Assembly: GCA_918298275.1 (NCBI GenBank)
Contig: CAKJZO010000024.1
Span: 1-64,000 of the forward strand
Origin: Spirochaetota bacterium
GTDB taxonomy: Bacteria; Spirochaetota; Spirochaetia; Sphaerochaetales; Sphaerochaetaceae
DNA length: 64,000 nucleotides
Reading direction: 5' to 3'
This document shows, piece after piece, positions 18,153 to 64,000 of this stretch (positions within the stretch are counted from its first letter, which is position 1; every line of letters begins with the position of its first letter). A program made the translations under genes and the position numbers. A model generated the notes under the pieces. That model searched no databases. It was not told the DNA's origin and worked only from the letters and a program-made list of their open reading frames with translations.

Positions 18153-20849
18153 TTAGTTGATTGCAGCCTGTGCAGCGGCCAGTCTTGCGATTGGCACTCT
18201 GTACGGTGAGCAGGAGACATAATTCAGGCCGACTGTCTGGCAGAAGGCGATTGTCTTCGGATCACCACCGTGCTCGCCGCAGATACCGAGTCTGATGTCC
18301 GGTCTGACGGAACGGCCGAGCTTTGCAGCTGTCTGCATGAGCTTACCTACTCCATCCTGATCGATTGTTGCGAACGGATCGTACTCGTAGAACTGCTTGT
18401 CGGTGTCATTGACATAGTGTCCGAGGAAGCTTGCTGCATCATCTCTTGAGAATCCGCAGGTCATCTGAGTGAGGTCGTTTGTACCGAAGCTGAAGAACTC
18501 TGCTTCCTGAGCGATCTCGTCAGCTGTGATGGCAGCTCTCGGAACCTCGATCATAGTACCGATCTCATAGTCGATCTTCTCTTTTCTCTCTTCGAAAATC
18601 TGAGCGATGACTTCTTCTGCGTGCTTCTTGCAGAACTCGAACTCCTTGTGGTTGCCGACAAGAGGAATCATGATCTCAGGATAGACGTTGATGCCTTCCT
18701 TCTTCACGTTCATGGCAGCCTCGATGATTGCGCGGACCTGCATTCTGAGAATCTCAGGATAGATGATTGCAAGACGGCAGCCTCTGAAACCGAGCATCGG
18801 GTTGAACTCGTGCAGGGATGCAGCCTTTCTGGCAACCTCTTCCTGGCTGATGCCGAGGGCCTGAGCCATCTCATGTCTGGTTGTGCTGTCGTTGGGCAGG
18901 AATTCGTGAAGCGGCGGATCCAGCAGTCTGATGTTTGCCGGAAGTCCCTTCAGCTCGCGGAACATTGCCTCGAAGTCGCCTCTCTGCATCGGAAGGAGCT
19001 CGGCAAGAGCAGCTTCACGCTCGATGAGGTTGTTTGCAAGGATCATCTTTCTCATGGAGACGATTCTGCTTCCGCCGAAGAACATGTGCTCGGTTCTGCA
19101 CAGACCGATACCTTCTGCACCGAGCATGACAGCCATGTGGGTATCCTTCGGTGTATCGGCATTGGTTCTGACGCCCATTGTCTTGATTTCATCGACATAG
19201 CTCATGAACTTCTTGTAGTTCTGGAACAGGTTGGAATCCTTCTCCTTCATTGTTCCCTCGAGAACCTGAACGATCTCGGAAGGCTTGACCTGGATCTTTG
19301 CGTTGTAGACAGCGCCGTTGAAGCCGTCGATGGAGATGAAGTCACCTTCCTTGACGACGACACCGTTGACCTCGAATGTCTTGGTGGGAAGATCGACATG
19401 GATCTCACCTGCACCGGAAACACACGGGCAACCCATACCTCTGGCGACGACTGCAGCGTGGCTGGTCATACCGCCGCGGCATGTGACAACACCCTTGGAA
19501 ACTGCCATTCCGCCGATATCCTCGGGAGAAGTCTCTGTTCTGACAAGAATTACATCCTTTCCGAGCTCATGCCATGCCTCTGCATCCTCAGCAGAGAAAA
19601 CAACCTGTCCGCATGCTCCTCCGGGAGATGCATTGAGGCCGTTGGTAAGCGGCTTGATTCCGTCGGCCTTGATCTGTGCCTGGTCGAGAATCGGAGCAAA
19701 GAGCTTGTTGAACTCGCCTGCCGGAACTCTGGAAACAGCTGTCTTCTTGTCGATGAGGCCTTCCTCGACCATCTCGACCTGGGATCTGAGCCAGCTGAAG
19801 ATCGTTCTCTTTCCGTTTCTGGTCTGCAGCATGTAGAGCTTTCCTTCCTGGATTGTGAACTCCATATCCTGCATGTCGTGATAGTGCTTCTCGAGTGTTT
19901 CTCTGATCTTGCAGAGCTGATCGTAGACATCGGGATTGACCTTGCAGAGGGTCTCGATGGACTGCGGTGTTCTGATACCGGCAACGACGTCCTCGCCCTG
20001 AGCGTTCATGAGATACTCGCCGTAGAAGTGGTTGTCTCCAGTGGCGGGGTCACGTGTGAATGCAACACCTGTACCGGATGTCTCACCCATGTTACCGAAG
20101 ACCATGCACTGGACGTTGACTGCTGTTCCGAGAAGTCCGCGGATGTCATTCATCTGTCTGTACTTGATGGCTCTGGCGTTGTTCCATGAGCGGAAAACTG
20201 CATTGATAGCCTTGAAAAGCTGATCATAGGGATCAACGGGGAACTCCTCGCCTGTTGTTCTCTTGTAGATTCTCTTGTATCTCTTTACGAGGTTCTTGAG
20301 CATCTCCGTGGTGAGCTCATAGTCATATGTGAGGCCTTCCTCGTCCTTGACGTCCTGGATGGCTTCCTCGAACTTGTCGTGGGGAACTCCCATGACGACA
20401 TCACCGAACATCTGGATGAAACGTCTGTAGCTGTCCCATGCAAAACGCTCGTTGCCTGTCTTCTTGGTAAGAGCATCGACTGAATCCGGATTGAGACCGA
20501 GGTTGAGGACTGTATCCATCATACCGGGCATTGACTGTGCAGCACCGCTTCTGACTGAAACAAGAAGAGGATTCTTGTTGTCGCCGAGCTTTGCACCCAT
20601 GGTGCTCTCGAGCTGCTTGAGGTTCATGAGGACCTCGTCCTTCATTCCCTGGGGATACTCTCCGTTGTGCTTTGAGAAGTAATCACAGGCTTCTGTGCTG
20701 ATGGTGAATCCGGGAGGTACCGGAAGACCGATATTAGTCATTTCTGCGAGGTTTGCACCCTTTCCACCCAAAAGATCCTTCATGCCGGAAGTGCCTTCTG
20801 CCTTTCCATTGCCGAAGAAGTAAACCCATTTGGTAACTTTCTTTGCCAT
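18153..20849 (-). CDS. ppdK: Pyruvate, phosphate dikinase
   Basis: VYFFGNGKAEGTSGMKDLLGGKGANLAEM, CRGGMTSHAAVVARGMGCPCVSGAG; internal ATG MAKKVTKW used. Confidence 0.98.
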   Translation of the reverse strand: MAKKVTKWVYFFGNGKAEGTSGMKDLLGGKGANLAEMTNIGLPVPPGFTISTEACDYFSKHNGEYPQGMKDEVLMNLKQLESTMGAKLGDNKNPLLVSVRSGAAQSMPGMMDTVLNLGLNPDSVDALTKKTGNERFAWDSYRRFIQMFGDVVMGVPHDKFEEAIQDVKDEEGLTYDYELTTEMLKNLVKRYKRIYKRTTGEEFPVDPYDQLFKAINAVFRSWNNARAIKYRQMNDIRGLLGTAVNVQCMVFGNMGETSGTGVAFTRDPATGDNHFYGEYLMNAQGEDVVAGIRTPQSIETLCKVNPDVYDQLCKIRETLEKHYHDMQDMEFTIQEGKLYMLQTRNGKRTIFSWLRSQVEMVEEGLIDKKTAVSRVPAGEFNKLFAPILDQAQIKADGIKPLTNGLNASPGGACGQVVFSAEDAEAWHELGKDVILVRTETSPEDIGGMAVSKGVVTCRGGMTSHAAVVARGMGCPCVSGAGEIHVDLPTKTFEVNGVVVKEGDFISIDGFNGAVYNAKIQVKPSEIVQVLEGTMKEKDSNLFQNYKKFMSYVDEIKTMGVRTNADTPKDTHMAVMLGAEGIGLCRTEHMFFGGSRIVSMRKMILANNLIEREAALAELLPMQRGDFEAMFRELKGLPANIRLLDPPLHEFLPNDSTTRHEMAQALGISQEEVARKAASLHEFNPMLGFRGCRLAIIYPEILRMQVRAIIEAAMNVKKEGINVYPEIMIPLVGNHKEFEFCKKHAEEVIAQIFEERKEKIDYEIGTMIEVPRAAITADEIAQEAEFFSFGTNDLTQMTCGFSRDDAASFLGHYVNDTDKQFYEYDPFATIDQDGVGKLMQTAAKLGRSVRPDIRLGICGEHGGDPKTIAFCQTVGLNYVSCSPYRVPIARLAAAQAAIN

Positions 20850-20963
20850 TTCCACATTCCTTATAAAAAAAGATTTCTGATTAACATGACAATTTTTCAC
20901 AAACGTAACACTTCTTGTCAACCATGAACGGTATTATACTGTTTTTATTGCTGAGATACAAAC

Positions 20964-20999
20964 AAAAAAGCCGAAAAATCATAAATTTCCCGGCTTTTT
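20964..20999. terminator. Bidirectional hairpin with poly-A/T flanks
   Basis: AAAAAGCCG...CGGCTTTTT between sigma factor gene and ppdK. Confidence 0.75.
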
Positions 21000-21029
21000 C
21001 TCAAACGTTTGCGTTTAGTTAATCCGAAA

Positions 21030-49616: not shown

Positions 49617-50489
49617 ATGGAAAACAGCGGTGGGAAACTAAAGATAACAATCACTATGATTATCTTCGGGACTATAGGAGTTGTCCGCAGATATATACCA
49701 TATTCATCCGCTATGATTTCCTTCTTCCGCGGCTTTCTAGCTGCACTGATTCTACTTATTCTGAGACTTATAAGTAAAAAGGAATCCGATAAGGAAGATC
49801 TCAGAAGAAATCTATTCCCGTTGATTGCTTCTGGCGCCATGATCGGCGTCAACTGGATTCTTCTGTTCGAAGCATATAGATTCACAACAATTGCAGTTGC
49901 AACAATAAGTTACTATATGGCTCCAGTATTCACAATCATTGCCTCTACATTCATTCTCAAGGAAAGAATGACAATAAGGAAAGCAATCTGTGTTGCCGTA
50001 GCGCTTCTAGGCATGGTTTTCGTTTCAGGCGTAATCGAAACCGGAATCACTGGAATCCGCGGTGTTCTCCTGGGTCTTGGTGCAGCCATACTGTATAGCG
50101 GGGATGTCATAATCAACAAGAAAATCAAAGGCGTAGACGGAACAGACCGCACAGTCATACAGATGGCAGCCGCTGCGCTGACCGTACTGCCCTATTGGCT
50201 CTTGACCGATGATTTCTCTGCTCTGGTCCTCGGAGGCCGGGACATAGCCCTGCTTCTTGTTGCATGCATAGTCTGCACCGCACTTCCATACAGCCTCTAT
50301 TTCAGTGCGATTCAGGTAGTAAAAGCACAGACTGCAGCCCTTCTGAGCTACATAGACCCGATCGTTGCCGTGCTTCTCTCAGCCTTGTTCCTCAAGGAAA
50401 AAATGAGCACGCTGACATTGATAGGAATCATCTTGGTTATAGGATCTGCTCTAATAAGCGAAACATCAAAGGAAAACGGGAATGAATAG
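49617..50489 (+). CDS. EamA/DMT-superfamily transporter
   Basis: 10-TM, two EamA repeats; internal start MENSGGKLK. Confidence 0.9.
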   Translation: MENSGGKLKITITMIIFGTIGVVRRYIPYSSAMISFFRGFLAALILLILRLISKKESDKEDLRRNLFPLIASGAMIGVNWILLFEAYRFTTIAVATISYYMAPVFTIIASTFILKERMTIRKAICVAVALLGMVFVSGVIETGITGIRGVLLGLGAAILYSGDVIINKKIKGVDGTDRTVIQMAAAALTVLPYWLLTDDFSALVLGGRDIALLLVACIVCTALPYSLYFSAIQVVKAQTAALLSYIDPIVAVLLSALFLKEKMSTLTLIGIILVIGSALISETSKENGNE

Positions 50490-51999
50490 AATCAGAAACA
50501 TCCTGGCATTGACTTTTACCGTACTGCTTCTTTCCGTATCATGCGCGGTAACATCGAAATCAAGCTATGTGCCGCCCAAGAAAAACGTAACTGTTTCACT
50601 CGGGCAATCCACGCTTATAATGCGTCCCGGTGAATCAAGAACATTCAACCCCACGTTCAAGAACGCAGAAACTCCTCCCGAATTGATTTGGACATCAAGT
50701 GATGAAAGCGTCATCAGCATCAGTCAGGACGGAACCGTCATCGCCCACAACGATACCTCCGGAAGCCTGTCGGCGCAGATCACCGCTGCAATTGCAGATA
50801 ATCCGAACATGAGGTCAGTCTGCACCATTACCGTCCTCTCACCATCGCAGGTCCACTTCCTCACCGCCGGTCCCGGAGAAGATGCCTCAACCCAGGCAGT
50901 CATTTCCTGGCACTCTGTTCGCCCGACTTCTACGCTTGTCTATGCCGATACCGCCGATCCTGAAGATATCAAGATGCTTCCCCTGGAAGGAGAACCCACT
51001 TCATCAGAATGGGCAGACCTATCTTTCATATACCGATACAAGACTGTTCTTTCAGACTTAACTCCTGATTCAACATATAGTTATTATATACTTGACGAAG
51101 ACGGTAATACTTCCGAGAAGTCCTTCTTCAAGACTGCAGGAACTGACGGCACTTTCAGCTTCGCATGGCTCAGCGATGTCCATGCAAGTACGGCAGACAG
51201 CATGAAAAACACCATTACTCTGCTTGATTATATGAAGGCCAGAAGCGATATATCTTTCTGTCTTTACACTGGAGACTATGTCAATCAGGGCCAGAGATAC
51301 AGATATTGGGAAAGCTGGACGGACAGCGGACTGCTTTCTGAAATGAGCTATTCCTTCCTTATCGGAAACCACGAATACTATCCCAACAATACACCAGAGT
51401 CCGCGACTCCCTCCTATTACCTGGATTTCGCTGCCATACCCGACAACCACGGCAACAGTGCACCTGCAGACTACTGGTTCCTCTATGACAATGTCCTTTT
51501 CATCTGCCTTGACAGCATGGCGGCAGACTTCGCCGAAGGAAACAGAATCAGAGACCGGCAGCTTGGCCTGATCAAAACGGCAATCTCTGAAGCCTGGGGT
51601 GATTTTACATACATTATCGTCGCGCAGCACTATGCATTCCTTGACGGAGATGCTGACGGTACCGGAAAGTATTCCTACTGGTATCAGGCATTCGATAATG
51701 TGGGCATAGACCTCGCCCTCTCATCCGATACACATGCCTATTCCAGATCCAAAACCTTGTTCAACGATCATGAAGACATATTCGGAACCGTGTATGTCAC
51801 AAGCCCCAAGACCGACGGCAATGAGCTTTCCGAAATTGTCAGCGATGATGAACAGCTGGGCATCAGAAGCGCTTTCAACAGCGCAGCAACAGTAACAGGC
51901 GGATGCTATATCGATGTTACGCCCGAAAAGATGACTTTGCATCTCATCAGCAAAGACGGAATTGAATACGATAGCGTTGTAATTCCTGCCCGGAGATAA
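50482..51999 (+). CDS. Metallophosphoesterase lipoprotein with N-terminal BIG2-like and purple-acid-phosphatase-type domains
   Basis: LSVSCAVTSK lipobox; IWTSSDESVISISQDGTVIA; LSDVHAS..., YTGDYVNQG, LIGNHEYY, SDTHAYSRS. Confidence 0.9.
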   Translation: MNRIRNILALTFTVLLLSVSCAVTSKSSYVPPKKNVTVSLGQSTLIMRPGESRTFNPTFKNAETPPELIWTSSDESVISISQDGTVIAHNDTSGSLSAQITAAIADNPNMRSVCTITVLSPSQVHFLTAGPGEDASTQAVISWHSVRPTSTLVYADTADPEDIKMLPLEGEPTSSEWADLSFIYRYKTVLSDLTPDSTYSYYILDEDGNTSEKSFFKTAGTDGTFSFAWLSDVHASTADSMKNTITLLDYMKARSDISFCLYTGDYVNQGQRYRYWESWTDSGLLSEMSYSFLIGNHEYYPNNTPESATPSYYLDFAAIPDNHGNSAPADYWFLYDNVLFICLDSMAADFAEGNRIRDRQLGLIKTAISEAWGDFTYIIVAQHYAFLDGDADGTGKYSYWYQAFDNVGIDLALSSDTHAYSRSKTLFNDHEDIFGTVYVTSPKTDGNELSEIVSDDEQLGIRSAFNSAATVTGGCYIDVTPEKMTLHLISKDGIEYDSVVIPARR

Positions 52000-52615: not shown

Positions 52616-53143
52616 TCAACGACGAGAACCATATTTCTCCAATCTCGCTTCCTTTGAAGCTCTCCGCCTGCGGAAGATGATCTGGGATGAAACCGTCCCG
52701 ATAAGGGAACAGATGATCATCGGTGCTCCGGCAATAGCCAGAAACAGCATGTACTCTGTCTTCCAGTCGGATCTGTCGACTATGAATATCATCGTCACGA
52801 CGACAATCAGGGTGATGATGCTCATCCAGGTGAATGCTGCCGGAACGATATTCATCTTCTCGCGGAAGGCGAATGAAAGCGCCACGCACGGTATGCATGC
52901 GGCTATTGCCGGAATGCTGTACTCAATGATATTCCTGACTGCGACACTGCTGTTTCTGAATGCCATCTCCAACGGTTCCAGAAGCAGCAGGTAGGAAACA
53001 AGCACTACCGCGATGAACAGCAGGGACAGTGAGAACGAATAGACCAGTGTCGGGCTCTTCGGTTTTCCCTCTTCCGTAAGGAAAACAGCCTTGCAGATGC
53101 GGTCAATCTTCTCGGATAGTCTGCTTTTCTCCTTCCCTGCCAT
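52616..53143 (-). CDS. Hypothetical membrane protein, last gene of ABC operon
   Basis: 4 TM segments; internal start MAGKEKSR at 53143. Confidence 0.65.
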   Translation of the reverse strand: MAGKEKSRLSEKIDRICKAVFLTEEGKPKSPTLVYSFSLSLLFIAVVLVSYLLLLEPLEMAFRNSSVAVRNIIEYSIPAIAACIPCVALSFAFREKMNIVPAAFTWMSIITLIVVVTMIFIVDRSDWKTEYMLFLAIAGAPMIICSLIGTVSSQIIFRRRRASKEARLEKYGSRR

Positions 53144-53157
53144 CAATCTATCCCCGT

Positions 53158-54417
53158 TTACTTGGCCTTGCTTCTCCAATACTTGAAGTATGCAGTGACG
53201 TTCGGATACATGGCGTAGATCTTGTCGAAATCAGGCTCGGTGAGAATGACTTCCTCAACTGTCTTGCCGTTCTTGAAGTATTCGACATCATCACGGATCG
53301 ACCATGAACCCCTCTTGTCAAATGCAGTGTAGCATCCGCTCTGACCGTCATCTCCGCCCATGCAGTACATGATGTAGAGTCTGGATCCGGCAGGATTGTC
53401 CGAACCGTTGACAAGATAGGAATAGGAACAGGACTGGAATGCAGTATAGGGCTCCAGGCCGATTACCCAAGCAACGTTCATGCCCATATCGGCATTGTCG
53501 AGCTTGCTGGCTGATGCAAGTCCGAGAGTCGGTCCGTTGATGCTCTGGTCAACAGCATCGACAACTCCGTCACCGTCGTTGAGCTCAGTCATCTTCATCT
53601 GGCTGAAGCGGTAGAAAAGCTCTACACCGGCATTGTCTTTGGGGAACTCCATTACGCCGGGCATGTTGTTCAGCTTGTCGTTGTAGGTGTACTCGAGCTT
53701 CTTTCCGTACTGCTTCTCATACTGCTGCTCCAGCTTGTCGGCATCGATGATAAGCTGGCAGAACAGGCTTGCATAGGACGGACCGTTGATGTCCTTGGTA
53801 TAGATTGTCCAGAACTGATGGTTGACTCCGGAAGCATCATAGTAGGATCCGGTTGAAGTATCATAACCCTCAACGATGTCCCACCAGCTCTTGAGAGGCA
53901 CTCCGTCGGGATACATCTTAGTGTTGTAATACCACGGATTGAATGTGGAATAAAGCGGAAGACCGAACTCCAGAAGATCCTCGCTGATATGCTTTGTCAC
54001 AGATTCGGGTCTGTAGATTGAGATATAGTCGTATAGAACCAGCTCATGGTAGATTTCACCGCTGTTGTCCTTGACCTGCATGACATCGGCATTGATGTTG
54101 CCTGTCTCGCTCTCCATCTCGATCTTGGAAGCAACCGTATCGTTGTCACATGAGATGTACTCGATCTTGTCCTTGAGATCAGGATAGTCGCTCTTGAATC
54201 TCCTGATGGCTGAAGATGCATCCGTGGTGGTTGCATAAACCTTGATTACACCGCTCTCCTGCTTTGCAAGCTCATAGAGTTCAGCCATGGAAAGGGAATC
54301 ATAGTCGATGTCGGAAGCAACAGCCTTGCCGCCCTTCTCGTCCTCTCCGCCGGCAAACACTGCGAAAGTGAATACCAGCATCATCAACAAAATGGAAACC
54401 AACAGTTTTCTTTTCAT
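53158..54417 (-). CDS. ABC transporter extracellular solute-binding protein
   Basis: Signal peptide FTFAVFAGG; AKQESGVIKVYATTTDASSAIRRFKSDYPD typical of Fe3+/phosphate-ester/AEP binding proteins. Confidence 0.88.
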   Translation of the reverse strand: MKRKLLVSILLMMLVFTFAVFAGGEDEKGGKAVASDIDYDSLSMAELYELAKQESGVIKVYATTTDASSAIRRFKSDYPDLKDKIEYISCDNDTVASKIEMESETGNINADVMQVKDNSGEIYHELVLYDYISIYRPESVTKHISEDLLEFGLPLYSTFNPWYYNTKMYPDGVPLKSWWDIVEGYDTSTGSYYDASGVNHQFWTIYTKDINGPSYASLFCQLIIDADKLEQQYEKQYGKKLEYTYNDKLNNMPGVMEFPKDNAGVELFYRFSQMKMTELNDGDGVVDAVDQSINGPTLGLASASKLDNADMGMNVAWVIGLEPYTAFQSCSYSYLVNGSDNPAGSRLYIMYCMGGDDGQSGCYTAFDKRGSWSIRDDVEYFKNGKTVEEVILTEPDFDKIYAMYPNVTAYFKYWRSKAK

Positions 54418-54434: not shown

Positions 54435-55592
54435 TCAGTCGTCAATGCCTGCGTGATGCTTGACCTTGGCGAACTTGATGAGTCTTCCTGTTTCTTTATT
54501 ATATACGTTCATTCTCGATGGATGAAGTACAACATAGACCTTCTGGTTCATATCATACTCGACAAGGCCAATCTGCTTGGCCAGGAAGTCAATTCCGTTG
54601 ACTGTAAGCGTAACAAGCGATTCGGAACCGGCAGGCTGGGATGCATAGACCTCGGCGAGAATTGTGTTCTTGTGCTGGGGATCTTCCGTGAAGATATCGA
54701 CCAGCTCCGGTCTCAGACCCAATACGACATCGAATTCCCTGTCCTGCGGAATCTCCTCGTCAAGCTTCATCTTATCCTTGGCAAAGTCATAATCCCCTAT
54801 CGGGCTCTTCACCGTGAGCTTCTCACCGTCAAAGGTTGCCTTGGCATCAATGAAGTTGATTCTCGGGTTTCCGATGAAGTCAGCGGCCTGCAGATCTATC
54901 GGATTCGTGTAGATTCCGAGCGGAGTATCGATCTGGCTGATCTCGCCTTCCTTGAACAGAGCAATCCTTGTGGACATTGTAAGGGCCTCGACCTGGTCAT
55001 GCGTGACGTAGATGATTGTAGTCCCGGTTTCCTTGTGAAGCCTCTTGAGCTCGGCTCTCATATCGATCCTCAGTCTGGCATCGAGGTTTGAAAGAGGCTC
55101 GTCAAGAAGAAGGAGCTTGGGGCTGGAGGCAATTGCACGTGCGATTGCAACACGCTGCTGCTGTCCGCCTGAAAGCTCATTGGGGTACCTGTCGCGGTAC
55201 TCTGCGATTCTCATGGTATCCAGAGACCTCATGACGGTCTTCTCGATCTCGTCCTTCTTCATCTTCTTGATTTTCAGACCGAAAGCGACATTGTCGAAGA
55301 CTGTCATGTGCGGCCAGAGCGCATAGCTCTGGAATACGAGGTTCAGTCCGCGCTTGGAAGGCTCCTCGTAGAATGCCTCGTCTGCATCGATTATGGTCCT
55401 TTCATCCATGGTCATCTTTCCGCCCTGAGGTTTCTCAAGACCGGAAATGACTCTGAGAGTGGTGGTCTTTCCGCAACCGGAAGGTCCCAGCAGAGTCATG
55501 AAATCCCCGTCCTCGATGGTAAGGTTGATATCCTTGAGAACGTGGTTGTCTCCGTAAAACTTATCAATATGCTCCAAAACTATTCTGCTCAT
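54435..55592 (-). CDS. ABC transporter ATP-binding protein (PotA/FbpC-like)
   Basis: LLGPSGCGKTTTLRVISGLE, LSGGQQQRVAIARAIASSPKLLLLDEPLSNLDA. Confidence 0.95.
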   Translation of the reverse strand: MSRIVLEHIDKFYGDNHVLKDINLTIEDGDFMTLLGPSGCGKTTTLRVISGLEKPQGGKMTMDERTIIDADEAFYEEPSKRGLNLVFQSYALWPHMTVFDNVAFGLKIKKMKKDEIEKTVMRSLDTMRIAEYRDRYPNELSGGQQQRVAIARAIASSPKLLLLDEPLSNLDARLRIDMRAELKRLHKETGTTIIYVTHDQVEALTMSTRIALFKEGEISQIDTPLGIYTNPIDLQAADFIGNPRINFIDAKATFDGEKLTVKSPIGDYDFAKDKMKLDEEIPQDREFDVVLGLRPELVDIFTEDPQHKNTILAEVYASQPAGSESLVTLTVNGIDFLAKQIGLVEYDMNQKVYVVLHPSRMNVYNKETGRLIKFAKVKHHAGIDD

Positions 55593-55602
55593 GTTAACCT
55601 CC

Positions 55603-57447
55603 TCAACCCATGCTCTTGGATACTTCGCCGCCGAGCTTTCCGGCAATCTTGTTGCCGATGAGAATAAACAGGATTATGACTATGCATATTGCATCGGCGA
55701 CCTGCGGCATAGCCTCCTTCGAGTAATCGAACGAAAGGAATGACAGCGTGTAATTGGAAGGAGTCATCAGGAGAGCTATCAAATCCAGCTCCTTGGCTAT
55801 GCTTATGAATGAAAGCAGGAAGCCCGAAACGAATCCGCCCTTTGCAAGAGGAATGACTATCTTTCCGATTCTCTTCCAGAAGCTTGCGCCTGCAAGGTCG
55901 GCTGCCTCTTCCAGCTCGACGCTGATCTGCATCATGTTGGACGATCCCGAACGGCTGGCGAACGGGAAATGCTTTACCACCGAACACAGCAGTATCAGGG
56001 CGAATGTTCCGTACAGCGAAGGAATCAGGCCACCGAGACGCGGTCTGCTGAACATGGCGAAGTAAATGGCGCTGAATGCAACACCTGGCATCAGATAAGG
56101 AATGAAGATCATCTGCTCCGTGCTCTTGCCGTACCACTTTCCGCGGCCTCTGGTCGTGACATATCCGAAGAACTGACCGAATATCGCGGTAATCAGGGAA
56201 CCCAGAACCGAAAGCTTTATTGTATTCCAGGTAGCCCTTCCGAATTCGGAGTTGCGGAACAGTCCGTTCTGTGCGAAAGCCGGGTTCGGTGCGTTTTCTA
56301 TCTTTCCTATCCACGCGTACAGCGAAAGGTTGTTTAGCCCGTATCCCTTACCGGGAACAATCTGGAAGCTCTCCATGACCAGAACGAACAGCGGAAGGAA
56401 CATGGATATGAAAAGGAAGATGATCAGGAACACCATCATCGGTACCTTGGCCTTTCCAAGCGGAATCAGGTTCCTTCTGGTTCCCTTTCCTCCGATCGTC
56501 GCATAGGATTTCCTGGTTCCTATGAGCTTCTGGTTGGCGAATATCGTTCCGCTGGCAAGAAGGATCATCAGGATGCTCATTGCATAGCCGACGCCTTTGG
56601 GGCTGTCGTTGATGAACTCCTTCATTCTTGTGGCAAGAACATAATAATCTATTCTGTTACCGAGGTTTGCAGCAACGCCGTAGGTTCCGATCGACTTCGA
56701 GATCGTCATGATAGTGGCAGAAAGGAACGCAGGCAGAACCAGCGGCAGAGTAATGCTCTTCAGTATCTGGACCTTGTTTGCACCCTGGATTTCTCCCATC
56801 TCCTCAAGCTCAGAGTTGATGGATCTCAACGAACCGGAAACCATGATGTAGGAGAATGCATAGTAGTGCATGCACATGACTATGATTATGGCAAACGGTC
56901 CGTACGCAAGCCAGTCCGGAACAGGTATTCCGTGTCCCGTCAGCAGTCCGTAGCTTCCGGAAAGCTCATTTCGGAACACCGATAGCCAGGATAGCGCCTT
57001 ACACCAGGAAGGTATCATATATGGAATGAGGATCATCGAACTGAGGATCTTCTTTCCGGGTATATCGGTTCTGACCATCAACCATGCTATGATCGATCCC
57101 AACGGCACCGATATGAGAGTGACGAAGATACCGATTATAAGCGAATGGAGCAGCGGCTCCCAGAAAATCGTCTTTGTCAGAGGGCTGGCAAGAAGATATT
57201 TCCAGTAGTACAGCGTATAATCGCCGATCTTTGCCCCGGGGATGCTTCTGAGCTCGGCCTTTGCAACGACGAACGTGTTCTGGACCATGATCAGAAGCGG
57301 AATGATTATCAGCACAAACAGGATTATGAGAGTAAAGAATACAATTACATTGAATGGATTTCCTACGATACCCAGGAATTGGTTCTTTATTCTTGTCCAA
57401 GAGAAATGCCTGTTTTTCTTCAGTTCCTTGACAGATGATACAGCCAT
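55603..57447 (-). CDS. ABC transporter fused permease (two ThiP/FbpB-like halves)
   Basis: 614 aa, EEMGEIQGANKVQILKSITLPLVLPAF and EEAADLAGASFWKRIGKIVIPLAKGGF EAA loops. Confidence 0.93.
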   Translation of the reverse strand: MAVSSVKELKKNRHFSWTRIKNQFLGIVGNPFNVIVFFTLIILFVLIIIPLLIMVQNTFVVAKAELRSIPGAKIGDYTLYYWKYLLASPLTKTIFWEPLLHSLIIGIFVTLISVPLGSIIAWLMVRTDIPGKKILSSMILIPYMIPSWCKALSWLSVFRNELSGSYGLLTGHGIPVPDWLAYGPFAIIIVMCMHYYAFSYIMVSGSLRSINSELEEMGEIQGANKVQILKSITLPLVLPAFLSATIMTISKSIGTYGVAANLGNRIDYYVLATRMKEFINDSPKGVGYAMSILMILLASGTIFANQKLIGTRKSYATIGGKGTRRNLIPLGKAKVPMMVFLIIFLFISMFLPLFVLVMESFQIVPGKGYGLNNLSLYAWIGKIENAPNPAFAQNGLFRNSEFGRATWNTIKLSVLGSLITAIFGQFFGYVTTRGRGKWYGKSTEQMIFIPYLMPGVAFSAIYFAMFSRPRLGGLIPSLYGTFALILLCSVVKHFPFASRSGSSNMMQISVELEEAADLAGASFWKRIGKIVIPLAKGGFVSGFLLSFISIAKELDLIALLMTPSNYTLSFLSFDYSKEAMPQVADAICIVIILFILIGNKIAGKLGGEVSKSMG

Positions 57448-57450
57448 TGC

Positions 57451-58206
57451 CTACTCCCTACCCATTTCTTTCTTGAGGATTTCGTATACCTCATATATAT
57501 CCGTAATCTCATAATCCGGAGCTACATCGAAATGTCCTATGTCCTTCAGCGGTGACAGAAATGAATTGATCTTGAAGATCTTTCCATATCCTACCTTGCG
57601 CGGGCCTACGACATCACGTGAAAGCGTGTCGCCGACAAAGGCACATTCTTCTGGTTTGAATCCGGACTGCTCTATTGCAATTCTGAAGATATTCGGATGC
57701 GGCTTTCTGTAGCTCACGATGCTTGATAGGGTCAGATCATCGAAATACTCGCGTATTCCGTATTTCTTCATCACATCGAAGACCGCAAAAAGGCTACCGG
57801 TATTGCTGACGGCGGCGATATAAAGCCCGAGGTCGTTCTTAAGACCTTCCAGCATTTCCTTTACATGGGGTCTGAGCTTGCGGTCGAATGCGGTAACTTC
57901 CCACATGGCGGCAATCTCCTCGCTGATTTCAACGAGCTTCTCCCTGTCGATTTCGATGCCTTTGAACCCGTAGTCCGGCCAGATTTCCTCGGGCTTGAGC
58001 TCGATCATCGTTTTCTCGGATTGCTTCTTATAGGCAAGAATCTGAGGTCCGACTATGGACCAGAGCTCTTCTGCCGAGTATTTGGTGCTTAAGCCATGGG
58101 CCTTGAGTATCCTGTCAAGCGCCAGAGCAGTTGCCTTTTCATTGCGCTCGTCTGCATACAGGTCCTCTATGGTTCCGCCCATATCGAACATTACGGCTTT
58201 GATCAT
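57451..58206 (-). CDS. HAD-family hydrolase (HAD-1)
   Basis: MIKAVMFDMGGTIED, AVSNTGS, SYRKPHPNIF, FVGDTLSRDVVG. Confidence 0.9.
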   Translation of the reverse strand: MIKAVMFDMGGTIEDLYADERNEKATALALDRILKAHGLSTKYSAEELWSIVGPQILAYKKQSEKTMIELKPEEIWPDYGFKGIEIDREKLVEISEEIAAMWEVTAFDRKLRPHVKEMLEGLKNDLGLYIAAVSNTGSLFAVFDVMKKYGIREYFDDLTLSSIVSYRKPHPNIFRIAIEQSGFKPEECAFVGDTLSRDVVGPRKVGYGKIFKINSFLSPLKDIGHFDVAPDYEITDIYEVYEILKKEMGRE

Positions 58207-58226
58207 GACCACTCCTTTTGCGTTTC

Positions 58227-58240
58227 CGTAAACGTTTTCA
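58227..58240 (-). promoter_or_regulatory. LacI-family operator site 1
   Basis: Minus strand TGAAAACGTTTACG, upstream of HAD-ABC operon. Confidence 0.7.
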
Positions 58241-58293
58241 TAACTTCCTATTTAAACCTTAAACTGTCCAAATTTGGAAGTCAACAAAAAAAG

Positions 58294-59172
58294 TCAGACG
58301 TAGAACTGTTTTATATAATCCAACACATCCTGCCTGGAACCCATGAAAGGACCGGGGGTTTCCATCTTCAGCGAAACAAGGGCAGCTGAGAATGTCAGAG
58401 CCTCCTGAATGGAGGAATTCTGACGTTCGGTGATGTAACCGGCAAACGTGGTATCTCCCCTTCCGGTGCGGCCTGAAAGGTTCCTGGGCTTGAGGGGTGC
58501 ACGGTAGATACGATCCCCGTCATAGGCTATGACTTCGGTATTGTGGGTAATGACGATCTCCTTTGCCCCCCACTCGTACATCTTTCTGGCGGCTGCCTCC
58601 CTGTCCGTAAGTCCGGTAAGCACTTCGGCCTCGGCGGCATCGGTCTTGAGGAATCTTATGTATTTAAGATATTGGGTTTTTTCGGGCCAATCGTGGAGCT
58701 TGAGTGTCTGATCAGGTTCGACATGGCGGAGCATGCACTGGATGTCCATGGCGACATCGCCGCGGCGGGCGCATTCGATTATCACATCCGGCCCTATATC
58801 CCCATAGCACAGACCCGCAAGATGGTAGACGTTTGTCTGATCATCCGGGATATCCTGCGGTGTATATGGGTCTATTACAGCAAGACAGCGTGATCTCCTT
58901 CTCTCACGATCAGGCGTGAAGTATACATTCTCCATCAACGTGCTGTTCTTGCTTGGCTTTGGGAAAACAGTGATTCCGCTTCCTCCGAAAGCCTTTCCAG
59001 CATCTGTCTCCTCCGGATTCCCCTTTGGAACTACGGCAACCTTCTTCCCTATTGAATTGGCTGCATGTCCGGAATAAAGGACCGCACCGCCGAAGCGATG
59101 CTCGGTTCTACCGTCGTAGTCCGTGTTGGTATCAAGACAGACCTGACCTATTATCATCGTATCGAATTTCAT
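58294..59172 (-). CDS. PfkB-family carbohydrate kinase
   Basis: MKFDTMIIGQVCLDTN...FGGAVLYSGHAANSIG; C-terminal GRTGRGDTTFAGY. Confidence 0.88.
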   Translation of the reverse strand: MKFDTMIIGQVCLDTNTDYDGRTEHRFGGAVLYSGHAANSIGKKVAVVPKGNPEETDAGKAFGGSGITVFPKPSKNSTLMENVYFTPDRERRRSRCLAVIDPYTPQDIPDDQTNVYHLAGLCYGDIGPDVIIECARRGDVAMDIQCMLRHVEPDQTLKLHDWPEKTQYLKYIRFLKTDAAEAEVLTGLTDREAAARKMYEWGAKEIVITHNTEVIAYDGDRIYRAPLKPRNLSGRTGRGDTTFAGYITERQNSSIQEALTFSAALVSLKMETPGPFMGSRQDVLDYIKQFYV

Positions 59173-59186
59173 TGCTATCTCCGTTT

Positions 59187-60188
59187 TCAGACAGAACGGC
59201 ATGAGGTTCTGACAACGAGCCTGGGTTCAATGCTGATTGACTGTCTGTTCTCCTCTTCCGAGGATCTGGTTATAAGTTCGAAAGCCGCTCTGGCCATCTC
59301 CAGCTGCGGCTGTTCTATCGTTGTTATTCCTATTCTCGGCAAAGCCGTAAAGGAAATATTGTCGAATCCCATCAGAGAGATATCTTCAGGAATACGAACG
59401 CCATCCTCATCGGCTGCCTGCATAGCGCCCAATGCCAGCGCATCGGTTGCACAGAAGATGGCTGTACAGCCTTCAGGAGAACGGAAGTATTCCTTCGCAA
59501 GCCTGCAACCTGCTTCCATCGAGCTTTTGCCGTCATTGTCGTTATCCTTGAAGACAACTTCCATTCCAAGTTCCCTGCATGCTGCTACGACTCCCTCTGC
59601 CCTGAGTCTATGGGTCAGGCTTCCCTCTCTGCGTCCGAGATACAGGATTTTCCTATGACCGAGGGATTGCAGATAGCTAACTGCCAGCTTTGCGCCTGCA
59701 GCGTTGTCGATAGCAACGAAGAACTGACCTGCATCGGGAATATTCTCGCTTACATAGACAACCGGGATATCGGTTGAATAAGAAGAGAGATTGGCTACGG
59801 TCTCCTTGCCTGCAGGGATTACTATGATACCGTCTACGCGTCGTCCGAGAAGGAGTGAGAACTGTCTTTTCTCTAGTTCGAGATCGTATGCCGAGTTGCA
59901 TACCATGAGGTTGTAGCCGTTTTCCCTTGCGGTGATTTCAATTGCTTCTATGAGCTCGCTCATGAACGGATTGTTTATGCTAGCGGTCACAACGCCAAGG
60001 ATATTCGTTCGCTTCTTGACCATCGAACGTGCGACGGAATCTGGAATATAGTTCATCTCATCGCAGATCCGAAGAATACGCTCACGGGTCGCTTCCCCTA
60101 TTTCCGAACTGCCGGACAGAGCCCTGGATACTGTAGCATAAGAGACATCAGCAACTTTGGCGATGTCCTTGATTGTCACTTTGTCCAA
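59187..60188 (-). CDS. LacI-family transcriptional regulator
   Basis: VTIKDIAKVADVSYATVSRALSGSSEIGEATRERIL; periplasmic-binding-like sensor domain. Confidence 0.96.
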   Translation of the reverse strand: MDKVTIKDIAKVADVSYATVSRALSGSSEIGEATRERILRICDEMNYIPDSVARSMVKKRTNILGVVTASINNPFMSELIEAIEITARENGYNLMVCNSAYDLELEKRQFSLLLGRRVDGIIVIPAGKETVANLSSYSTDIPVVYVSENIPDAGQFFVAIDNAAGAKLAVSYLQSLGHRKILYLGRREGSLTHRLRAEGVVAACRELGMEVVFKDNDNDGKSSMEAGCRLAKEYFRSPEGCTAIFCATDALALGAMQAADEDGVRIPEDISLMGFDNISFTALPRIGITTIEQPQLEMARAAFELITRSSEEENRQSISIEPRLVVRTSCRSV

Positions 60189-60201
60189 AGTTTTCCTCCA
60201 A

Positions 60202-60215
60202 TGAAAACGTTTGCA
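60202..60215. promoter_or_regulatory. LacI-family operator site 2 (autoregulatory)
   Basis: TGAAAACGTTTGCA; just downstream of minus-strand TTGACA-18-TACAAT promoter (60222-60251). Confidence 0.75.
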
Positions 60216-60256
60216 TTATCCATTGTACGGGCCTGAATCTGCATTTGTCAAATATT

Positions 60257-60286
60257 TTGACATAAGAGGTAAATTGCGCGTATTAT
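60257..60286 (+). promoter_or_regulatory. Sigma70-type promoter for the YwaF-like gene
   Basis: TTGACA (60257-60262), 18-nt spacer, TATTAT (60281-60286). Confidence 0.65.
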
Positions 60287-60324
60287 ATGTGGGTAAACAT
60301 AATTTCCTTGAAGGGAGAATCACC

Positions 60325-61107
60325 GTGCCGAAAGAGAGTTTCTGGATCATTAGACCATTCAATGCCGTATACCTTTGTACTTTCGGTTTCTTCATCGCCC
60401 TTCTTGTCATTTCGTCGATTCTTCTCCGCAATAAGGAAGAAAAGACCAGACGCAATGTTCTAGCCATCGCCTGCATCATTACGGCCATAGGATTCTTCGT
60501 TTACAAATATTTCCTTTCCATCGACGTGGAATACGATACCGTTGCCTATGCATCCATGGGTGGATTCAACTGGTGGGGAGAACTCCCGCTGCATATGTGC
60601 AACATAAACATGATTCTCATTCCTATCGGAGTATGGCGCAAAAACCGGTCCCTGATGAGTTTCAGTTTCTTCACCGGAACACTGGGTGCCGCAATGGCTC
60701 TGGCCATGCCGAGCATGGGTTTTGCGGGATATCCGCTCTACATGCCCAGAATCATCGGTTTCTACGGAACGCATTTCATGGTGTTCATCTCTGCAATCGC
60801 CCTTGTGACATTCGGGTTGTACCGCCCCAGATACAAGGACCTTCCGAAGACAATCCTTACCTTGCTGATAGTTACTTTCTGCATCTTCCTGATAGATGTT
60901 CTCATCAGGACAAGCGGACTCAATCCGAGAGCAAATTACTTCTTCGCAATGGAAACGGAAGGCAATCCGGTGCTGGAGATCTTCCACAAGCTCATTCCGG
61001 TTCCGTTCGTCTATCTGATCCCCTGTCTTCTCGTGCTTATCCCCTACATGAGCCTGATCATCCTCGGCTTCCATATCGCTGACAAGCACCGCAAGCCTGA
61101 CCAGTAA
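60325..61107 (+). CDS. TMEM164/YwaF-family integral membrane protein
   Basis: WWGELPLHMCNINMILIPIGV motif, 7 TM; GTG start at 60325 with AGGGAG Shine-Dalgarno preferred over the 60211 ORF start, which lies upstream of the predicted promoter. Confidence 0.75.
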   Translation: MPKESFWIIRPFNAVYLCTFGFFIALLVISSILLRNKEEKTRRNVLAIACIITAIGFFVYKYFLSIDVEYDTVAYASMGGFNWWGELPLHMCNINMILIPIGVWRKNRSLMSFSFFTGTLGAAMALAMPSMGFAGYPLYMPRIIGFYGTHFMVFISAIALVTFGLYRPRYKDLPKTILTLLIVTFCIFLIDVLIRTSGLNPRANYFFAMETEGNPVLEIFHKLIPVPFVYLIPCLLVLIPYMSLIILGFHIADKHRKPDQ

Positions 61108-61125
61108 TCTTCTTAAACTATTTAT

Positions 61126-61154
61126 TTGACAAACAATCCTGCCTCGTTTAGAAT
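61126..61154 (+). promoter_or_regulatory. Sigma70-type promoter of the HAD array
   Basis: TTGACA (61126-61131), 17-nt spacer, TAGAAT (61149-61154). Confidence 0.75.
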
Positions 61155-61163
61155 CGAATTGAG

Positions 61164-61177
61164 CGCAAACGTTTTCG
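61164..61177 (+). promoter_or_regulatory. LacI-family operator site 3
   Basis: CGCAAACGTTTTCG (minus strand CGAAAACGTTTGCG), over the expected transcription start. Confidence 0.75.
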
Positions 61178-61181
61178 TTGA

Positions 61182-61967
61182 TTGTTGCTCAAGGATTTCC
61201 GGATGATAGATACAGTACTGTTTGACATAGGCGGAACACTGATAAAGCAGAAGCGCAGTGCACAGAGGTCCCTTCTCTATTCCCGCTTCGTCAAGCAGAC
61301 TCTCTCTGAAATCGGCATCGATATCACTCTTGATGATCAGAAATTCTTCGACAGAATCTACTCCAATCAAGAAACCTACAAGCACGAGGGAGAAACGACC
61401 TTCAGGGAACTTCCTCCGATTGAAGTCTGGAGAGACAATATCCTTCGCGAATACGACATCACGATCGATAAGCTTGAGCATGTTGCCGAGAGCCTGTCGT
61501 TCACATATGACTATATCCGCATGGAAAACAGTCCCAGACCCAATCTGAGGCAATCATTGGAGCAGCTCAGGTCCATGGGCCTCAAGCTCGGCATCATCAC
61601 GAATACGATATCAAAGACCTTTGCAGAGCATATTCTCAACGAATACATGGTACTTCCCTACTTTCCGGTAATAGTGAAATCCTGCGAGTTCGGTATCCGG
61701 AAACCTCATCCTGCCATCTTCCAGCATGCAATGAATTTGATAGGAAGCACGAGGGAAACCACCTGCTATGTAGGAGATACGATTTCACGCGATGTCCTGG
61801 GTTCCAGGAATGCCGGCCTTGCAATGGCCATCAAGATCAGAAACAGCTCCATAGCCCACAGGGATACCGCCTTTCAGGGGTCTGATGCCCCGAAGGCGGA
61901 TTTCGAGATAGATGACCTCATCGAAATACCTGAGATTATTGAAACCTTCAACAAGGAGAGAACATGA
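61182..61967 (+). CDS. HAD-family hydrolase (HAD-2)
   Basis: VLFDIGGTLIK, GIITNT, FGIRKPHPAIF, YVGDTISRDVLG; start codon in the ORF track (first in-frame M at 61182). Confidence 0.88.
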   Translation: MLLKDFRMIDTVLFDIGGTLIKQKRSAQRSLLYSRFVKQTLSEIGIDITLDDQKFFDRIYSNQETYKHEGETTFRELPPIEVWRDNILREYDITIDKLEHVAESLSFTYDYIRMENSPRPNLRQSLEQLRSMGLKLGIITNTISKTFAEHILNEYMVLPYFPVIVKSCEFGIRKPHPAIFQHAMNLIGSTRETTCYVGDTISRDVLGSRNAGLAMAIKIRNSSIAHRDTAFQGSDAPKADFEIDDLIEIPEIIETFNKERT

Positions 61968-62686
61968 TAGACACCATTTTCTTTGACGTAGGAAACACAC
62001 TCAGAATCGTCGTTCCTGACAAGGAATTCATAGCCAATGCTGAAGCCGAGCTCATGAAACTCGTACGAACGAAGGAAGACCATGACAGTTTCTTCGCAAA
62101 GCTCGAGGAACGTTGGGTCGCATACCGCAGAACTGCAAAGACTACCCTCCTGGATGCCGGAGAGATGGAACTCTGGCGTGACTGGCTGCTTCCTGACTAC
62201 GATCCTGAGCTGATCAGCGAGAAGGCCGCCCGTCTTACCAGACTCTGGCGTGACCATGACGGTCGCAGAGTGGCCCGTCCCGATGTCAAGACAACCCTTG
62301 AAGAACTGGACAGACGCGGATATACGATGGGAATCATTGCAAATACCATCACGGAAACGGAGATCCCCGACTGGATGTTCGAGGACAAGGTCGCCCGATT
62401 CTTCAAGACCGTCATCCTCTCCTCCAAGGTAAGGATCCGAAAACCTGATCCTGCAATCTATCAGCTTGCCTGCAGGGCAATCAATAAGGAACCTGCAAGC
62501 TGCGCCTATGTAGGAGACAATCCGATCAGGGATGTCCAGGGAACACGTGATGCAGGATTCGGCATGATGATCCGCATAGATGAACCTGACACCATCAAGA
62601 AGGAACCCCAGGAAATCAAGCTCCATCCGGATTACACCATCGAGAGCATCTCGGAATTGCTCAAGATCTTTAAACCTTTATGGTAA
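61964..62686 (+). CDS. HAD-family hydrolase (HAD-3)
   Basis: IFFDVGNTLRI, GIIANT, RIRKPDPAIY, YVGDNPIRDVQG; 4-nt ATGA overlap with the previous gene. Confidence 0.9.
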   Translation: MIDTIFFDVGNTLRIVVPDKEFIANAEAELMKLVRTKEDHDSFFAKLEERWVAYRRTAKTTLLDAGEMELWRDWLLPDYDPELISEKAARLTRLWRDHDGRRVARPDVKTTLEELDRRGYTMGIIANTITETEIPDWMFEDKVARFFKTVILSSKVRIRKPDPAIYQLACRAINKEPASCAYVGDNPIRDVQGTRDAGFGMMIRIDEPDTIKKEPQEIKLHPDYTIESISELLKIFKPLW

Positions 62687-62697
62687 AAGGAGTTGAT

Positions 62698-63462
62698 ATG
62701 GAAAACAGAGAATTCGATGCAATTTTCTACGACCTTGGCGGAACACTGCGCCTTGTTGAACGCGATGCGGCATTCGAGGCTGAAGCCAGAAGAAAGATAG
62801 CGCAGATGTGCGGAGAAAAAGGAGATCCGGATGAATTCTGCAAGTTCCTCGACTACCGCTATGTCGGCTACCGCAAATGGTGCTTCGAAACCATGAAGGA
62901 AGCTCCGGAAGAGGAACTCTGGACCAAGTGGCTTGCCCCGGAATACCCGAGGGATCTCATCAGGAAGAATGCAATAGAGCTTACCATAGAATACAGGAAC
63001 AAGGACGGTCGCCGTGTAGTGGCACCTAACGGAGCCCAGTCCGTCAGGGATATGTATGCACACGGGTATAAGCTCGGAATCATAAGCAACCTCGTCACAT
63101 CCCAGGAGATTCCGCGCTGGCTCAAGGAAGATGACCTTGAGCAGTACTTCGGCGCAGTACTGCTTTCCTGCGTCGAGGGAATAAGGAAACCGGATCCCAG
63201 AATCAGCGACAAGGCCTGCAGGATCCTGGGAGTCACTCCCGAACGCTGTGTCTATATAGGAGACAACCTCGACAGGGATGTGGAAGGCACGCGTCTTGCC
63301 GGCTATGGGATGTTCATCCTCTACACTACTCCTGAGAAGCTTGCAAAGGAGAAGATCACCGATGCAAACAGACCGGATGCCGTCATTTTCGATTTCAATG
63401 AACTGAAAGACATATTCCCGAAGGCCCCTTACGTGGCATGGGATAAGATCAGGAGAGTATGA
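62698..63462 (+). CDS. HAD-family hydrolase (HAD-4)
   Basis: IFYDLGGTLRL, GIISNL, GIRKPDPRI, YIGDNLDRDVEG. Confidence 0.9.
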   Translation: MENREFDAIFYDLGGTLRLVERDAAFEAEARRKIAQMCGEKGDPDEFCKFLDYRYVGYRKWCFETMKEAPEEELWTKWLAPEYPRDLIRKNAIELTIEYRNKDGRRVVAPNGAQSVRDMYAHGYKLGIISNLVTSQEIPRWLKEDDLEQYFGAVLLSCVEGIRKPDPRISDKACRILGVTPERCVYIGDNLDRDVEGTRLAGYGMFILYTTPEKLAKEKITDANRPDAVIFDFNELKDIFPKAPYVAWDKIRRV

Positions 63463-64000
63463 TGAAGGAAAACATCAAAGCCCTGTTTCTGGATCTGGGA
63501 GGCACATTCCGTGAAGTCTACGAGAACAAGCCTTTCTCAGACGATGCAAGAAGAAGAATAGCCGAAATCTGCAAGACGGATATGGATCCGGATTCCTACT
63601 ACGACTTTCTCAACAAGAGATATGACGTCTACCGTGAGTGGGTCCTGCACTTCATGTGCGAACCGCCCGAGCAGTTTCTGTGGTCACGCTGGCTCTGTCC
63701 CGAGCTCGATACCGACTACATCGAATCCCACGCGCAGGAACTCACCTACTACTTCCGCCGTGCAAAAGGAGAGCGCCTGATAGTCCCCGGAGGTCTTGAA
63801 ACCGTCAAGGAGATCAGAAAACGCGGTTATCTCGTAGGTATCATCAGTGATCTGGTAGGTACCCGGGAAATAGACGAGTGGCTGGACAACGACGGAATCA
63901 GGGATTTGTTCTGCACGGTGCAGCAGTCATCCATCACAATGCTCCGCAAACCCCACCCTGCCATCTACTACCTTGCGCTGAAGGAAGCTCATGTCAGACC
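63459..64000 (+). CDS. HAD-family hydrolase (HAD-5), truncated by window end
   Basis: MMKENIKALFLDLGGTFREV, GIISDL, MLRKPHPAIYY; ATGA overlap with previous gene; not in ORF track because open at the edge. Confidence 0.88.
   Translation, partial: MMKENIKALFLDLGGTFREVYENKPFSDDARRRIAEICKTDMDPDSYYDFLNKRYDVYREWVLHFMCEPPEQFLWSRWLCPELDTDYIESHAQELTYYFRRAKGERLIVPGGLETVKEIRKRGYLVGIISDLVGTREIDEWLDNDGIRDLFCTVQQSSITMLRKPHPAIYYLALKEAHVR

Follow-up and report, generated by a model that had tools for sequence, protein, structure and literature searches.

Five haloacid dehalogenase-family proteins with a DxG motif I belong to a predicted inositol catabolic regulon of gut bacteria

In phosphatases of the haloacid dehalogenase (HAD) family, the aspartate at position +2 from the motif I nucleophile activates water and serves as general acid/base. 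Five HAD genes (HAD1 to HAD5) at one end of a 64,000-nucleotide stretch from a Sphaerochaetaceae-like gut spirochaete (G000:C24:1-64000, hereafter the window; assembly of 1.83 Mb, 86% complete) encode proteins with Gly at this position, which raises the question of what these proteins do and why they stand together. The closest named records of the genome are Spirochaetales/Sphaerochaetaceae metagenome-assembled genomes from rumen, ruminant, and horse faeces. We found that the HADs very probably belong to an inositol catabolic regulon; this inositol context is our main result and was absent from an earlier, sequence-only reading of the same DNA. With moderate confidence, we further propose that they are cytoplasmic inositol-phosphate phosphatases in a LacI-controlled regulon that also comprises an importer, inositol (iol) catabolism, and pyrophosphate (PPi) enzymes.

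The HAD genes, their operators, and the iol genes

All five reading frames exist and, as the sequence-only reading had stated, have a DxG motif I throughout (DMGGT, DIGGT, DVGNT, DLGGT, and DLGGT); none has the Asp at +2 that marks DxD phosphatases. Each protein exceeds the Pfam cut-offs for PF00702 and PF13419, on which our family calls rest together with the curated NCBIfam cut-offs of TIGR models. Across the five groups, all 201 orthologs read have Gly at +2 (a count that includes three rows outside the automatic pattern, reading DIGGTV/DLGDTY), while among 10 other non-P-type HADs found in the window's genome this residue is Asp in nine and Glu in one; DxG is therefore not due to chance. 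Motifs II to IV had been described as intact, which holds for motif III (RKPHP/RKPDP) and motif IV (GDxxxRD) but only in part for motif II, which is Ser-Asp in HAD5 and Ala-Asn in HAD3, the latter invariant in the 25 aligned HAD3 orthologs. The "one locus" described earlier comprises two operons: HAD1, a minus-strand gene flanked by those for a PfkB kinase and an ABC permease, is part of an ABC transporter operon, whereas HAD2 to HAD5 form a plus-strand operon whose gene ends overlap or nearly overlap. Nor does the array continue past the window's end, since HAD5 is the last HAD and the next gene encodes a phosphoglycerate mutase.

In a scan of 84,980 species genomes, most carriers of the HAD1 family were gut Clostridia (rumen Clostridiales, Christensenellaceae, Oscillibacter, Agathobaculum, and Butyricicoccus), with others among Chloroflexi (Flexilinea) and Spirochaetes. 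Culturable carriers include Agathobaculum butyriciproducens DSM 100391 and Oscillibacter valericigenes An860 (L146/L159). When the window's proteins were mapped on these loci, a conserved module emerged: substrate-binding protein (SBP), ATPase, permease, HAD1, PfkB, LacI, and HAD2-HAD3-HAD4-HAD5 followed by a 2,3-BPG-independent phosphoglycerate mutase (iPGM). Each HAD pairs with its own counterpart across phyla (60-88% identity for HAD3), which argues for five maintained functions. The five HADs are thus conserved components of a gene set that moves among gut bacteria, and not the lineage-specific expansion once suspected: the same five orthologs occur in the same order in Clostridia, Chloroflexi, and Spirochaetes. 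The accompanying idea of an expanded clade stands in so far as the five are more similar to one another than to the genome's remaining HADs and none of them has the +2 Asp; a single-clade origin is not settled by our tree, in which HAD3 and HAD5 each form one clade and HAD4 does not, and which, with DxD outgroups as long branches, neither shows nor excludes a single clade for all five.

In several Clostridia, iolE, iolB, iolD, and iolG lie on the same strand as the module and are joined to it. One locus (L180) reads iolE-iolB-iolD-iolG-permease-ATPase-SBP-HAD1-MgtC-LacI-HAD2-3-4-5-iPGM-PfkB-membrane pyrophosphatase (mPPase); four others (L166, L171, L179, and L224) have a similar gene order, and Clostridia representatives of iolE, iolD, and iolG exceed the curated cut-offs. 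In the Oscillibacter family, 4 of 151 genomes have HAD1, and iolE is present in exactly these four. Among 13 spirochaete genomes, iolE and iolD score over cut-off in all eight that have HAD genes of this locus, whereas the five congeners that lack it have neither, and iolE is found in 44 of the 50 genomes reached via HAD loci. Shared ancestry lowers the number of independent events behind this co-occurrence, yet the pattern recurs in two phyla.

In the window's genome, the iol operon lies on another contig (C23) and contains genes for type II GAPDH, a second PGK, iolE, iolB, iolD, and a LarA-like racemase. Its iolE and iolD exceed their cut-offs; the iolB-like gene scores 85 bits against a cut-off of 205 and has an ortholog in a related genome (G003). 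With these three the operon counts as an inositol catabolic gene cluster (IolCatGC), defined by at least three of iolB, iolC, iolD, and iolE in one determinant. The GAPDH inside the operon (L205-L209) is of the archaeal type; ordinary GAPDH, PGK, and TPI genes are also present, on the window's contig (L010:6629-9654).

A GAAAACGTTTGC-type palindrome, the predicted LacI operator, precedes LacI, HAD1, and HAD2 and recurs at the same places in relatives and in Clostridia; we accepted only near-exact sites that were conserved in relatives or next to linked genes. In 27 homologous loci searched up to 250 bp upstream, the operator core precedes HAD2 in 25 and is never found ahead of the operon-internal HAD4, HAD5, iPGM, or SBP genes. 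A near-exact copy lies between iolG and the iol operon and is kept in 5 of 5 congeners examined. Two more lie upstream of a membrane (Na+/H+) pyrophosphatase gene on contig C8 (L222:3882-6044), a link backed by the mPPase genes that adjoin the module in Clostridia. A further, tentative copy precedes PPDK in the window (Table 1). One predicted operator type thus stands before HAD and iol genes and is kept in relatives, which strongly supports membership of the HADs in an inositol regulon, with a single LacI-type repressor as its predicted switch. Since operators precede iol, lower-glycolysis, and PPi genes, the regulon would unite inositol catabolism with a second set of lower-glycolysis genes and with three PPi enzymes.

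Coordinates of the module and of putative regulon members are collected in Table 1. A TMEM164/YwaF-like membrane protein gene (60211-61107) separates LacI from HAD2 in the window; it is missing from a related genome (G005), where a single short promoter region serves the divergent LacI and HAD2 genes.

Table 1. Features of the HAD module and its putative regulon (window positions unless marked as contig)
Feature	Position	Strand	Basis or remark
Pyruvate, phosphate dikinase (PPDK, PPi enzyme), putative regulon member	18153..20921	-	operator-like site
Operator-like site TCTCAAACGTTTGCGT	20999..21014	.	upstream of PPDK; one genome only
Small membrane protein	52616..53179	-	family without Pfam match; behind SBP gene in 70 related loci
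ABC substrate-binding protein (SBP)	53158..54417	-	no Pfam match; distant homologue in L072 is SBP_bac_8
ABC ATPase	54435..55592	-	mapped across related loci
ABC permease, two fused BPD_transp_1 domains	55603..57447	-	best curated match 2-aminoethylphosphonate permease PhnU2, below cut-off
HAD1 (DMGGT), C1-cap HAD hydrolase	57451..58206	-	first gene behind own operator, then ABC transporter genes
Predicted LacI operator CCGTAAACGTTTTCAT	58226..58241	.	upstream of HAD1
PfkB-family kinase, TM0415 type (PPi-dependent myo-inositol kinase)	58294..59172	-	homology
LacI-family regulator	59187..60188	-	profile matches
Predicted LacI operator ATGAAAACGTTTGCAT	60201..60216	.	upstream of LacI gene
Predicted LacI operator GCGCAAACGTTTTCGT	61163..61178	.	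upstream of HAD2
HAD2 (DIGGT)	61203..61967	+	Pfam match
HAD3 (DVGNT; motif II Ala-Asn)	61964..62686	+	best conserved of the five across phyla
HAD4 (DLGGT)	62680..63462	+	Pfam match; true start probably 62698 (MENREF)
HAD5 (DLGGT)	63459..64000; whole at contig 63459-64226	+	255 aa; truncated by window end
Circularly permuted iPGM, 521 aa	contig 64223-65788 (L010:1224-2789)	+	operon, after HAD5; sequence

Possible catalysis without the +2 aspartate

AlphaFold2 models of HAD1 (pLDDT 96.4) and HAD3 (pLDDT 92.8) have a helical insert at about residues 20-105, between motifs I and II; together with the Pfam matches, this makes the proteins C1-cap HADs (Rossmann core, motifs I-IV, helical cap between motifs I and II). 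Foldseek neighbours are likewise C1-cap HADs: PH0459 and its engineered derivatives, NANP/HDHD4, HDHD3, haloacid dehalogenases, and cis-epoxysuccinate hydrolases. The top curated family for all five, with full-length matches, is TIGR02253 (CTE7), but scores of 88-113 bits against a cut-off of 169.75 leave them outside it.

Could the HADs be something other than phosphatases, as had been suggested? Enzymes that hydrolyze C-X, epoxide, or C-P bonds, in the manner of L-2-haloacid dehalogenase, cis-epoxysuccinate hydrolase, or phosphonatase, would fit the loss of the +2 Asp from all five proteins and the presence of the first two enzyme types among the structural neighbours. The HMM check against the dehalogenase and phosphonatase families pointed the other way: the HADs reach at most 47.6 bits against a cut-off of 125.4 for L-2-haloacid dehalogenase (TIGR01428), and HAD2 reaches 25.1 bits against 220 for phosphonoacetaldehyde hydrolase (TIGR01422), the other HADs not being among the matches listed for that model. 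With the phosphatase-type motif IV intact and the context rich in phosphate enzymes (phytase, PPi enzymes, an organophosphate-type ABC transporter), we consider a non-phosphatase function very unlikely.

Nor does DxG require one. YihX of Escherichia coli, an alpha-D-glucose-1-phosphate phosphatase known by that name from solved structures, has motif I FDLGNV, with Gly at +2 as in the HADs; because this phosphatase reads DLGNV, DxG is compatible with phosphatase activity. Identity to YihX is 28% across only 101 residues, and the HADs score far under the cut-off of its PRK09456 family. The nucleophile Asp, the motif III Lys, and the motif IV acids are all conserved in the HADs, and the phospho-Asp pathway is therefore expected. 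As for the missing acid/base, an acidic residue stands in the cap seven residues ahead of an invariant Trp in all five groups, in every row with a locatable Trp; it is Glu in HAD1 (E69), HAD2, HAD4, and HAD5 and Asp (with one Glu) in HAD3 (D64). Judged from sequence, this invariant cap acid may be the substitute for the +2 Asp; by appearance it resembles a Glu in a YihX segment, GEISDEAF. Phosphoryl transfer would then proceed via the motif I Asp nucleophile, with the cap acid taking the general acid/base role. HAD3, which has no motif II hydroxyl, may be a slower enzyme or else a binding or transferase subunit.

A bolder idea makes the loss of the +2 Asp the very point of the system: the HADs would be inositol-phosphate:phosphate phosphotransferases, in which inorganic phosphate instead of water attacks the phospho-aspartate and yields PPi. 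If so, the phosphoester energy of phytate products would be saved as PPi for the TM0415-type kinase, for PPDK (as ATP), and for the mPPase (as an ion gradient). We give this idea scarcely any credence.

Importer, kinase, and substrate

Plant feed stores its phosphorus mainly as phytate, whose breakdown products are inositol phosphates; to our knowledge, little has been described of how gut bacteria use partly dephosphorylated phytate. According to a review, no specific transporters carry phytate across the gut wall, and the bacterial phytate literature that we examined describes no inositol-phosphate importer. In the phosphatase reading we favour, the organophosphate-type ABC importer would take up inositol phosphates, probably the lower ones left by phytases, and the five dedicated HADs would strip their phosphates one by one. 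Freed inositol would enter IolG-IolE-IolD-IolB, and the resulting triose a dedicated lower glycolysis of type II GAPDH, second PGK, circularly permuted iPGM, and PPDK. Pyrophosphate would be the phosphoryl currency, with a TM0415-type kinase, PPDK, and mPPase in one regulon.

Import of phosphorylated inositol would be the simplest account of five phosphatases beside an organophosph(on)ate/polyol-type importer. We infer it from the PhnU2-like permease, the precedent of AfuABC, phytase or acid phosphatase genes in related loci, and MgtC genes in about 25 loci. AfuABC, once annotated as an iron importer, proved to import hexose and heptose phosphates (PMC4546632). The same precedent invites a different substrate: the regulon might handle some other sugar or polyol phosphate taken up alongside inositol, the iol link being co-regulation only. 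Phosphomannomutase genes in one related locus (L071) would fit this, but the module has no conserved gene for hexose-phosphate catabolism and iol genes co-occur with it almost perfectly; we see a slim chance at best for such a substrate.

The phytase-type genes are found in related spirochaete loci: L071 has a beta-propeller phytase (PF02333), and L072 a lipoprotein of the histidine acid phosphatase type (His_Phos_2). Next to the L071 phytase gene and three phosphomannomutase-type reading frames is a DxG HAD fused behind a 235-aa domain (genome G057, L071:11466-13306); the upstream half of this domain, with a DVDDT motif, is encoded in a neighbouring frame of its own. In the window, the gene for an exported metallophosphatase (50482-51999) with weak similarity to purple acid phosphatase N domains runs toward the SBP gene at a distance of 1.2 kb, with no operator seen; the enzyme may supply the importer, of which the small membrane protein (Table 1) is a possible extra subunit. 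Besides MgtC, the flanks of ABC/HAD1 loci L116-L190 contain genes for a metallo-beta-lactamase-fold protein (about 33 loci), Exo_endo_phos proteins (15), and PHP-domain proteins (11); a conserved lipoprotein and large exported proteins flanking the Clostridia loci match no Pfam family.

The kinase bears on a second alternative. The PfkB protein matches TM0415 of Thermotoga maritima, a PPi-dependent myo-inositol kinase (PMC5931981), with E=1e-39. TM0415 has a PPi signature of K171, F221, R229, R232, and M266 and contacts inositol through D11, N78, Q141, and R145 (PMC5931981). In all 32 kinase orthologs we found K171, R229, R232, and M266, as well as D11, Q141, and R145; N78 is kept in 30 of 32, and the F221 position is mostly L/V/I (F in one, Y in one). 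That the module's only kinase keeps the inositol contacts would suit an inositol catabolism module whose transporter imports free inositol or another derivative, the HADs acting on intermediates phosphorylated internally by the PPi kinase (side products or ring-opened intermediates). Most loci, moreover, show no phytase in their flanks, and iolC was not found in the iol operon or the fused Clostridia loci (no genome-wide iolC search was made). Five dedicated phosphatases seem excessive for internal intermediates, and both the organophosphonate-type best curated match of the permease and the exported phytase or acid phosphatase in two related loci speak against it; we rate this alternative as rather unlikely.

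Several points weigh against inositol-phosphate phosphatases as the function of the HADs. The SBP has no match among solved structures or in Pfam, which makes inositol phosphate as its ligand a guess from context, and phytase-type genes occur in just two loci. HAD3 lacks the motif II Ser/Thr hydroxyl in addition to the +2 Asp. An inositol kinase beside phosphatases would seem to run a futile cycle, except if it phosphorylates some other iol intermediate, and the TM0415 authors themselves question inositol as the real acceptor of that enzyme (PMC5931981); for the module's kinase, acceptor and reaction direction are putative. In six of the 50 HAD-locus genomes no iolE passed the threshold, which may reflect incomplete assemblies or another route. 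Finally, a loose genome-wide operator search (≤2 mismatches) was not enriched, with 33 sites against 60 in the reversed control, which leaves the PPDK site tentative.

The iPGM is circularly permuted: its sequence begins with the C-terminal two thirds and closes with the N-terminal metal/Ser motifs (ILDGWG at 316, GNSEAGH at 366), and TIGR01307 matches it with 480 bits in two pieces. About 30 orthologs in Clostridia, Chloroflexi, and Spirochaetes show that this is no assembly error; a conventional 550-aa iPGM is also present in some relatives (G004 and G005). In two loci (L105 and L106, from G004 and G023), the permuted gene adjoins an ABC transporter and HAD genes are absent, which suggests that it can travel with other organophosphate-type importers. 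Our literature search on circularly permuted cofactor-independent phosphoglycerate mutase found nothing relevant.

Significance and comparison with known systems

The module is a complete candidate route, from importer through cytoplasmic phosphatases to catabolism, that is spreading across phyla in the guts of ruminants and other animals. It gives the orphan PPi-dependent inositol kinase a place in a PPi-centred regulon, and its five conserved DxG HAD families are test material for HAD function without the +2 acid. Our literature search returned no account joining at least four of the terms inositol phosphate, haloacid dehalogenase, ABC transporter, gene cluster, and inositol kinase.

Known systems resemble its parts. 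Like AfuABC and PhnSTUV-type importers, the transporter consists of SBP, fused permease, and ATPase, with the permease closest to PhnU2; all importer parts here score under curated cut-offs, however, and the SBP has no solved homologue. The PfkB kinase shares the basic PPi residues and inositol contacts of TM0415 but has L/V/I in place of F221, and TM0415 resides in its own setting, the TM0411-TM0416 operon (PMC5931981), unlike the HAD/ABC module. The main text of a large IolCatGC survey (PMC9430895) makes no mention of haloacid, pyrophosph-, LacI, Spirochaet-, phosphoglycerate, or ABC transporter. The module shares iolG, iolE, iolD, and iolB with IolCatGCs, whose core is iolBCDE, and these genes either adjoin the HAD array or share its predicted regulation; the module differs from IolCatGCs by an iol operon without iolC and by its LacI regulator, organophosphate-type ABC importer, five HADs, PPi kinase, mPPase, type II GAPDH, second PGK, and permuted iPGM.

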